Source of the DNA: Allacma fusca
Lineage: Eukaryota; Arthropoda; Collembola; Symphypleona; Sminthuridae
Reading direction: 5' to 3'
Assembly (NCBI GenBank): GCA_947179485.1
Contig: OX359250.1
Location: 8,723,873-8,787,872 of the forward strand
Length of the DNA stretch: 64,000 bases
The stretch's first letter is position 1. Each line of letters begins with the position of its first letter. Of this stretch, positions 3,201-6,200 are shown one piece after another. A program made the position numbers and the translations under genes. The notes under the pieces are model-generated. The model saw only the letters and a list, made by a program, of their open reading frames with translations. It made no database searches and had not been told where the DNA came from.

Positions 3201-6200
3201 GGTGTGTGTAAAAACTGTCATTATGAAAATAACATGAGGCGAAGTGTGCAAAAGGCATTGTCACTCTGGGATCCCGGACGTGTAGAAATGAAATTATGTC
3301 ATTAAAATTTCCGGGCGCGTCTGCCTATTACATTATGTGTTGGTCGATATAAAAAATCCTAATAGTCCCCGTCCGTTGTTTTACCCGGATGAGTCAATTT
3401 TTGTCACCATTGTCATTTTTACCCATAATCGATTTAGACCACCGGCTGCATTTTCCCTTAACGGCCATAATTCCTGGCCAGGTTGACCCCAAGAGCTTTT
3501 TTAGCCCTGCTCCTTTCTTCCCTCTGCCTGACTAGAAAAATTAGACGCTGAGCTGTTAATACTAGTCCCGGAATTCATACTAGTTTTATGTAATTCCTCA
3601 TTTTGAAAGTTGGATGGAGCTACTAAACAAGAATATAAATGGATTTAAATATTTCAAAATGTAATACTTGAGAGTGTATGAGACGGGACTTTTAATAGGC
3701 TCATTTTATGCTATAACCTAATGTTAGTATTTAATTGAGTAGGACTCCCACGTACAATATTTAATGAAAAGAGAGCATTAAGTTGATTGGTAAGTTGTTA
3801 AGTGGTTGTCGAGTGAGAGGTAATGTTGGCGGGGATGTTTGTGATTAGTTGTATAATTATTATGAATTTACTAAATGAGGATGTCGTCGGGACTGGGAGG
3901 GTGGGGTGGGGGGGGGACTGATGCTATGGTCCGTGTATTTATGCATGCCATTTAGAGAAGGACTTTGTTTTTGAGGAATGTTGTTGTTGGTGATATAATG
4001 ATATGAAATGATACGTTTAGGTTAGCATTGTACTCTTCCTGGTCTCGCGTTTCAACCCCACGGAGTGGAAACTGGAAACAAATGGACTCATAAATCATGT
4101 GTCTGTTTCTAATGATCCCATGTGGTTCTCATTGGCTGCATTGTTTCAGCAAGGAAGTGATATTTCTCCAAGGTAATCATTTTCTTTGAGATGTTCCTCT
4201 CTCTCTCTCTCCCTCTTTTGAGACGACTAAATGTAGTAGTGGTGAAAGTCATACGAGGCTGGAGCACGCACTCATGCGGTAACACACTCATGAGCTTTAC
4301 CAAGCTCCCCGACACACAACAGCCACTTTAACATGAGGAAAGGCCATGAAATAGAGATTTCACCTACAGTCTTCCTCTCAGTTGGGGTGTACAAGGAGCC
4401 AACGAAACATTTCCCTCCCCTTAGCTCATGCATCAATTTCTTAAGTCAGTCTCAAATGTTTAAGTTCCCATGTCAATTGGAGCCAATTTTTTTGTTTAGT
4501 AGATCTGGCCAAATTACTTCAGCGTAAATGTTTGACCTGGTCAAACATTTACGACTGACGTTAAGATGAACACATTTTGAGTGCAAGTTAATGATTTTGA
4601 AGGAAATTTAAAATACCATTTTTCTCTGACAAAACCCCGATTTTATAACCGAAAGGGGAGTACAATTTTCACACGGGACGGCTTTGTTATTAAAATCCCT
4701 GGGAATTAATATTTGACTTAGATTTTTAAACTTGTCCACACAAAATATTTGAAAGGTAGATACTGCAATTCCAATGCCTACAAATTTTTGGGAAATTCTG
4801 TAACATTTGGGTGAAGGAAATATTCCAACCTCACAATTGTGACTTTTGACGTCATAAATGTTGACCCAGGTCAATGTAATAAATTCTAAAAAATCCGCAA
4901 AGGAATTTTTTTTAAATTTAGGGTATTTGAATTTCTTTTAAAATCTCTCTACATTTATTTCCTCAAAGGCTCAGCTGTGGACGTAGTAAATAAAAAAATT
5001 GAGGGGTTTGAATGGATGAAATTTTAAAATTTAGGCAAGCGTTTGTGAGAGTCTGGGGAGGGGGGAGGGGCAGAAATTCTTGAAAGACATTGTACCATAT
5101 ATGGGAGATACTGGGGGAGGAAGGTTTCGTGGGAACGTGTAGAAAGACTTGGAAGAATTATGATTGTATTACGCACGAGGTGCTCAGTAGATGAGGAACG
5201 TGAGTCCAGTAACATGGCGTGGAGATGTTCGACTGGCTCAAGGAGTAAAAGCATGGGATAATGCCAACATGAAATGTCTGATTTGATTGACCGATCATGT
5301 TTGATGTTCTCGTTTGGGCTTCCATTGTAGATCGACAGCAGGTCGAATCGTGGGGAGTGTCTGGTGGTTTTTCACGCTCATTCTCATCTCCTCATACACA
5401 GCCAATTTTGCGGCGGTGAGAACCGTCAACCGAATGGTGACTCCTATTAACTCTGCTGAGGATCTCGCAGCCCAGACTGAAGTTGAGTATGGAACTTTGT
5501 CATCCGGATCAACATGGAACTTCTTCAGAGTACGTTGTCTCCCTCGCCTCCCAATTGTCATTCCTCTTTCTATGCATAATTTAAGCCCCTATACCTGTGC
5601 AGTCATCTCTCGCTCCGCACCTGCATCCTTCACAGTAATCAAAGGCTCCTCTCATACACGCTGGGAATCCCTTTTCCATTAAGTACGGTCGCAGTTGTAG
5701 ACAAACACACTCGGGTAGAGGATCGTCCCTAAGATTGTCCCTGTCCCGACATACAGTCTATGTATGTATAAACAAAATATAGCATTTGATAAATTAGTAA
5801 GAAGCAAAATTAATTATTTGGAAAATTTTGTGCTATTTTGAGTAGTTCATAGACTTGCTGAGGCTATAAAAAAAAGAAGATATTCTTATATGCTGAAGTC
5901 TTGTTGTTAGTAGACGTAATTCTTCAAGTGAAAATACGGAGCAAGAATCTTTGGTTTCATTTGTTGATACTGTTCCCGTGCTCCTCTCCCTTTGAGCCTG
6001 ATATCTCCATGCGAGTGTTGTTCCTCCCATTTTTTTTTCCCACAGACCTTCGATTAGTATTCAAACCATGATTTTTCATTCGTTCTTCGATCCTTAAGTA
6101 TTGGCAGAGTATTAGTATATCTATAGATATACTTTGTGCTCAGTATGAAGGCACGGGGCTTCATCCGCTCCAAGGTATTACAGTGGCTCATTCCGAAAAT

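Follow-up and report, generated by a model that had tools for sequence, protein, structure and literature searches.

Can an AMPA-type glutamate receptor, a channel for fast signalling between nerve cells, work with a gate whose near-invariant M3 motif has been rewritten? The available text of PMC10973091, PMC5225553, and PMC6307864 describes the M3 motif as highly conserved elsewhere, and the accessible part of PMC10973091 calls it "virtually intolerant" of variation. An exon in a 64,000-nucleotide stretch of Allacma fusca DNA (hereafter the window) encodes an altered form of this motif. The locus raises three questions: whether the gene is an AMPA-type subunit, whether the alteration is real, and how such a channel might gate.

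The AMPA-type receptor gene in the window

The window contains an intact AMPA-type coding region at positions 263–10450, which consists of 10 exons joined by nine GT-AG introns and has no internal stop codon. The 491-residue product spans the ligand-binding domain, M1, M2, M3, S2, M4, and a C-terminal tail (Table 1). The exon borders were set by eye, those of the first and last exons being the least certain. This is the C-terminal half of the receptor gene; the rest, with the amino-terminal domain, presumably lies upstream of the window. The exon that carries the altered motif is bordered by the acceptor TTGTAG/ATCG and the donor CAGA/GTACGT; the reading frame enters it in phase 2, so that the R of SPR is completed there, and exits in phase 0.

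Table 1 Positions of the receptor exons and altered codons in the window, and of the two M1-M2 exons of the paralogue.
Feature	Position	Strand	Basis
Putative exon, amino-terminal domain end and ligand-binding domain start	263–376	+	Open frame, AG/GT borders, in frame with next exon
Exon, S1 half of glutamate-binding domain	453–573	+	PDB alignments, PF10613
Exon, S1	725–813	+	Gene model, PDB alignments
Exon, S1 end, pre-M1, and M1 (AALTIS...; P478A and K511D relative to GluA)	2318–2512	+	Gene model, PDB alignments
Exon, M1 end and M2 pore loop, Q at Q/R site	4021–4172	+	Gene model, GluA4-type alignment
Exon, M3 helix and S2 start, altered gate motif	5331–5529	+	Gene model, PDB alignment
15-residue altered stretch	5392–5436	+	Codon listing, paralogue comparison
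11 motif codons	5392–5424	+	Codon listing
L620F codon	5407–5409	+	Codon listing
F623V codon	5416–5418	+	Codon listing
L624R codon	5419–5421	+	Codon listing
E627N codon	5428–5430	+	Codon listing
Exon, S2	7239–7347	+	Gene model, PDB alignments
Exon, S2 with AMPA-type signature	8332–8467	+	Gene model, PDB alignments, genome search
Exon, S2 end and M4	9846–10095	+	Gene model, PDB alignments
Putative last exon, C-terminal tail to stop, least certain border	10340–10450	+	Gene model; weak match to GluA4-type tail
Paralogue main M1-M2 exon, VQQGSDLSPR	C9:26182273–26182619	-	Genome reading
Paralogue alternative M1-M2 exon, FRQASPITPR, R at Q/R site	C9:26184452–26184768	-	Open frame, donor 7/9 consensus

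The class of the receptor is clear from its structural relatives. The best 60 of 388 PDB matches to the spliced protein are named glutamate receptor 1–4, GluA1, or plainly "Glutamate receptor" (lowest E 5.8e-167), and no kainate, NMDA, or delta name occurs among these best 60 of 388. The name of the top chain, 9rnh_A, gives no subunit ("Glutamate receptor"); we call it GluA4-type, its alignment being near-identical to that of 9igz_D, a glutamate receptor 4. It shares 262 of 439 aligned residues with the window protein. The M3 exon alone finds its best PDB chain in 9nr7_B, also a glutamate receptor 4, which aligns with residues 2–66 without gaps (E 5.2e-27). PF00060 and PF10613, which cover the ligand-binding and channel domains, both score above the Pfam cut-offs. 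Moreover, the S2 signature takes the AMPA form ending (G/R)NLD and not the kainate form CNLTQIGGLLDSKG. We take this segment to discriminate the AMPA from the kainate class, and this assumption fits the PDB rankings of both the window gene and a kainate-type gene on C8.

Six of the seven residues that we take to contact glutamate (Y450, P478, T480, R485, S654, T655, and E705) are present, P478 being replaced by alanine. The pore loop carries Q at the Q/R site, and the M2 filter reads QQGSD, that is, QQG-D with C589S. The full SYTANLAAFLT spelling is absent, 8 of its 11 residues being matched; this is no bar to membership of the superfamily, as GluN3A and the SYTANLATFLI genes of this genome vary here too. 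Seven of the nine residues of SYTANLAAF are kept, including Y2, A4, and N5, where the membership filter for ionotropic glutamate receptors in the available text of PMC6307864 asks for at least four. Judged by its PDB matches, Pfam domains, and S2 signature, the window gene is an AMPA-type ionotropic glutamate receptor subunit, in agreement with the original prediction.

Several other coding segments lie in the window. On the minus strand, an exon of the sodium:dicarboxylate symporter family (PF00375, a family that includes glutamate transporters) occupies 32021–32446, some 22 kb away from the receptor, and bicarbonate transporter exons (PF00955) lie at 58988–60159 on the plus strand. An exon at 13037–13486 (-) belongs to a phage/mitochondrial-type DNA-dependent RNA polymerase (PF00940). 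An 826-residue open frame at 19417–21897 (+) consists of long RD/RE-rich 48-base tandem repeats with no Pfam match and is followed by a MIF4G exon at 21970–22464, a CWC22-like combination. A Harbinger-like DDE_Tnp_4 transposase fragment lies at 51152–51769 (-).

The altered M3 motif and its second copy

In mature GluA2 numbering, the replacements of SYTANLAAFLTVERM residues in the window gene are L620F, F623V, L624R, and E627N, and the four altered codons are at least 7 nucleotide changes away from any canonical coding. T617, A621, T625, and M629, which form the narrow gate constriction according to the available text of PMC9068512, are all unchanged, as is the lurcher alanine A622, the eighth motif residue. 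The original prediction put the loss of two bulky gate residues close to the bundle crossing, which is right for position but not for role: the residues that line the pore are all retained. Nor are the flanks fully conserved, as had been claimed: the TVNRM segment is itself changed by E627N, and G603S, I612L, and S631T are among the further differences from the GluA4-type chain around the motif.

The motif does not stand out by its rate of change. Identity to the GluA4-type chain is 15/18 for M3 before the motif, 8/11 for the motif, 30/42 for pre-M1/M1, and 25/39 for M4, the raw identity of the motif being no worse than that of the other segments. Among the 179 columns at which the GluA4-type chain and the C8 kainate-type protein are identical, both AMPA genes differ at 4 of 15 within residues 615–629 and at 32 of 164 elsewhere, and the motif is not clearly faster-changing than other conserved columns. 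It is notable because it is near-invariant elsewhere, not because it is the fastest-evolving part here. No paper with the altered spelling was found in open-licence PMC text, and the pattern stretches retrieved from the viral and prokaryote collections (31 in IMG/VR and 127 in GTDB) include zero confirmed relatives.

Two further ideas about the altered codons were considered and rejected. No shift of the canonical codons, judged by eye, yields the altered ones, which argues against a compensated frameshift. A cryptic donor within the motif, GCG/GTGAGA, matches 6 of 9 consensus positions, the same as the exon's own donor (6/9); it is nothing special, as position 5363 scores 6 and position 5436 scores 7, and the paralogue has GCT/GTCAGA there.

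We searched the genome from which the window comes (392.7 Mb, 91 contigs); animals outside it were represented by the PDB chains. The M3 exon has at least 14 genome matches at E ≤ 0.001, all of which were read. Two of these 14 carry the altered motif: the window gene and an exon on the opposite strand at C9:26181890–26182087, with 15 residues identical. The remaining 12 read SYTANLAAFLT (five), SYTANLATFLI (four), SYTANMAAFLT, TFTANLAAFLT, and TYSGNLVAFLT (one each), and all have F and L at motif positions 9–10. R at position 10 is absent from these 12 exons and from the PDB alignments displayed (best 1–5 matches each). The altered motif is thus confirmed as a real feature by its in-frame exon, its splice borders, and its identity in a second gene.

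The four SYTANLATFLI exons, at C1:25.03–25.04 Mb (two), C10:50.40 Mb, and C10:41.11 Mb, carry a germline threonine at the lurcher position (A8T) and are written in differing codons. The one of the four that was compared with the PDB has kainate receptors first and an AMPA chain fourth, and we found no paper with this spelling. In a kainate-type gene at C5:52284488–52284682 (+), VDRK follows the motif, giving M629K, and the segment FLRQGSGLNPK has arginine at the Q/R site along with D590G.

A genome search with the AMPA-type S2 exon gave four matches, at 100% identity in the window, 91% in the C9 paralogue, and 51% each on C5 and C8; a third strong AMPA-signature match was not found in the genome. 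The C8 gene has kainate receptors as its first PDB matches, and the C5 gene has a kainate-type S2. Both AMPA-class genes found in the genome bear the altered motif. The suggestion of obligate heteromers is therefore hard to sustain for a canonical AMPA partner, the identical motif being present in the one other strong AMPA-signature match of the genome.

The two genes separated long ago. Over 329 aligned codons, which are parts of five exon blocks rather than whole genes, pS is 0.79 (saturated) and pN is 0.205. In the 15 codons of the motif stretch, nine differ synonymously, six are identical, and no residue is changed. Because the residues are identical despite saturated synonymous sites, the altered gate arose, by this codon comparison, before the deep duplication and was then maintained by selection; the synonymous differences within the motif codons disfavour recent gene conversion.

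The paralogue has its S1-end/M1/M2 exon in two versions, both AG-GT bordered and of the same phases, with a mutual identity of 39%. They look mutually exclusive and are candidates for switching the pore loop by splicing. P478 is replaced by alanine in the window gene (exon 2318–2512) and in the main exon of the paralogue, and the alternative exon keeps proline. In the window gene we found the Q form only and no R-form M1-M2 exon.

Structural reading and proposed gating

Ideal-helix geometry places the changed residues 80 to 180 degrees away from the pore direction. Among the 1365 possible four-residue choices in 615–629, 72 are equally tight and 330 avoid all four pore residues; the concentration of the changes on a single helix face is no more than modestly unusual and, taken alone, weak evidence. 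In the accessible text of PMC10584687, L620, F623, and L624, together with S615 of the neighbour, belong to an 11-residue perampanel pocket. Besides the first three of these, the pocket in the window gene has D519 replaced by S and seven other residues kept. The gating model in the available part of PMC5430913 brings S615 near L624 of the next subunit on opening, and E627 near S516 and N791. Since the pore-lining residues are kept and the changed ones lie in the perampanel pocket or away from the pore, the change looks like a rebuilt extracellular collar face rather than a rebuilt pore lining.

Two more specific collar features were discarded. A salt bridge between D511 in pre-M1 and R624 in M3 would fit K511D of the window gene, but residue 511 of the paralogue is N, and the bridge is not shared. 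N791S as a co-evolved collar change is not specific, the C8 kainate-type protein also having S there.

Taking gene comparison and structure together, we consider that the locus probably encodes a working AMPA-type channel, one of an old paralogue pair with a rewritten M3, altered gating energetics, and altered collar pharmacology. In such a channel, glutamate would still shut the binding clamshell and thereby pull M3 open, and the four-residue constriction T617/A621/T625/M629 would still seal the pore. The packing of M3, pre-M1, and M4 that makes up the extracellular collar would be rebuilt, with phenylalanine 623 gone and arginine 624 directed at S615 of the neighbouring subunit and at the collar pocket. 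The rebuilt collar would shift the energetics of opening and desensitisation, and the site for perampanel/GYKI-type non-competitive ligands would be destroyed or changed. Since the genome search returned no canonical AMPA subunit, the two altered subunits would assemble with themselves or with each other, which would place four arginines around the crossing.

The original prediction of different gating referred to the lurcher site. A change in gating is likely, as single changes at the same positions in GluA2, GluN1/2A, and GluD2 have strong effects on it in the parts of the sources available; the lurcher residue itself, A622, is unchanged. The combined effect of the four changes is not predictable from the published single changes, which point in opposite ways.

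A possible but distinctly less probable reading, in line with the non-conducting subunit that the original prediction allowed for, is that the channel opens very rarely or never, so that the AMPA class is mainly non-conducting or silencing, somewhat GluD-like, leaving the fast current to kainate-type receptors. In the available text of PMC10973091, which does not name the quantity, GluN2A F652V has a table value of 0.0018 against 0.19 in wild type, at a surface ratio of 0.86, and in that of PMC6626132, GluA2 F644L is robustly expressed yet abolishes GluA1 current on co-expression. The replacement of P478 by alanine in both AMPA genes, and the presence of kainate-type genes in the genome, point the same way. 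Less expected of a channel that has ceased to conduct are the retained filter, pore-lining gate, Q at the Q/R site, and AMPA-type M1–M4, as well as the slow amino-acid evolution.

It appears improbable that the gate has instead been loosened into a lurcher-like, constitutively active channel, or one of very high affinity that closes slowly, although single changes at the position of L624 can do so. In the accessible part of PMC10840383, GluD2 L656V passes 1040 nA constitutively (wild type, 18 nA), and in that of PMC10973091, GluN1 L655Q lowers the glutamate EC50 about tenfold, from 3.5 to 0.34 µM. In this genome, 4 of the 14 M3 exons bear the lurcher threonine. However, the lurcher alanine is intact in the window gene, arginine differs from the valine and glutamine of those two variants, and a leak in channels from both conserved AMPA-class genes would presumably do harm.

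An assembly error, a pseudogene, or a canonical M3 exon used as an alternative, the first and last of which the original prediction had allowed for, is a general possibility for which we found nothing and is highly improbable, given the identical motif with synonymous divergence in an independent gene, the intact frame, the failure of a motif scan and of tblastn (next best E 0.18) to show any further M3 exon in the window, and the at least 7 base changes needed.

Implications and comparison with known receptors

The preferred reading, a working channel with a rebuilt collar, has several consequences. Single human M3-motif changes are linked to disease, and two natural AMPA-class genes with three motif changes plus E627N, preserved across saturated synonymous divergence, suggest an alternative solution of the gate found by evolution. 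The altered pair offers a test that separates residues required for opening from those that set only its energetics, and the AMPA receptors of this animal are predicted to be poorly sensitive to perampanel-type blockers. More speculatively, and we hold this as a rather unlikely extension, the whole AMPA class of the lineage may have taken up a new, selectively maintained M3 gate with a ring of arginines behind the bundle crossing, and the alternative M1-M2 exon of the paralogue may swap the Q/R residue by splicing rather than by RNA editing. If this were true, the M3 gate would be re-engineerable in evolution.

The window gene shares with vertebrate GluA1–4 the ligand-binding domain, M1–M4, the S2 signature, the pore-lining gate residues, and the QQG-D filter. 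The vertebrate subunits have SYTANLAAFLTVERM, whereas the window gene has the altered M3, P478A, and a shorter M1-M2 linker. The kainate-type genes of the same genome (C5:52.28 Mb and C8:53.56 Mb) have the same channel architecture but the canonical SYTANLAAFLT. Lambda and Phi receptors of other animals also deviate from SYTANLAAF, according to the available text of PMC6307864; they are other classes, whereas the window gene is AMPA-type. GluN3A, of the NMDA class, resembles the window gene in having V as its ninth motif residue (STYTANLAAVMVGEK, three chains displayed), but differs from it in having M rather than R at position 10 and in keeping L at position 6. Finally, GluN2A F652V, for which the accessible part of PMC10973091 also gives a fall in glutamate EC50 from 3.5 to 0.93 µM, GluN1 L655Q, GluA2 F644L, and GluD2 L656V all fall at motif positions 9 or 10 and, in the parts of the sources available, have strong gating effects. 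These four disease variants are single human changes, whereas the window gene and its paralogue have both kept a naturally occurring combination.
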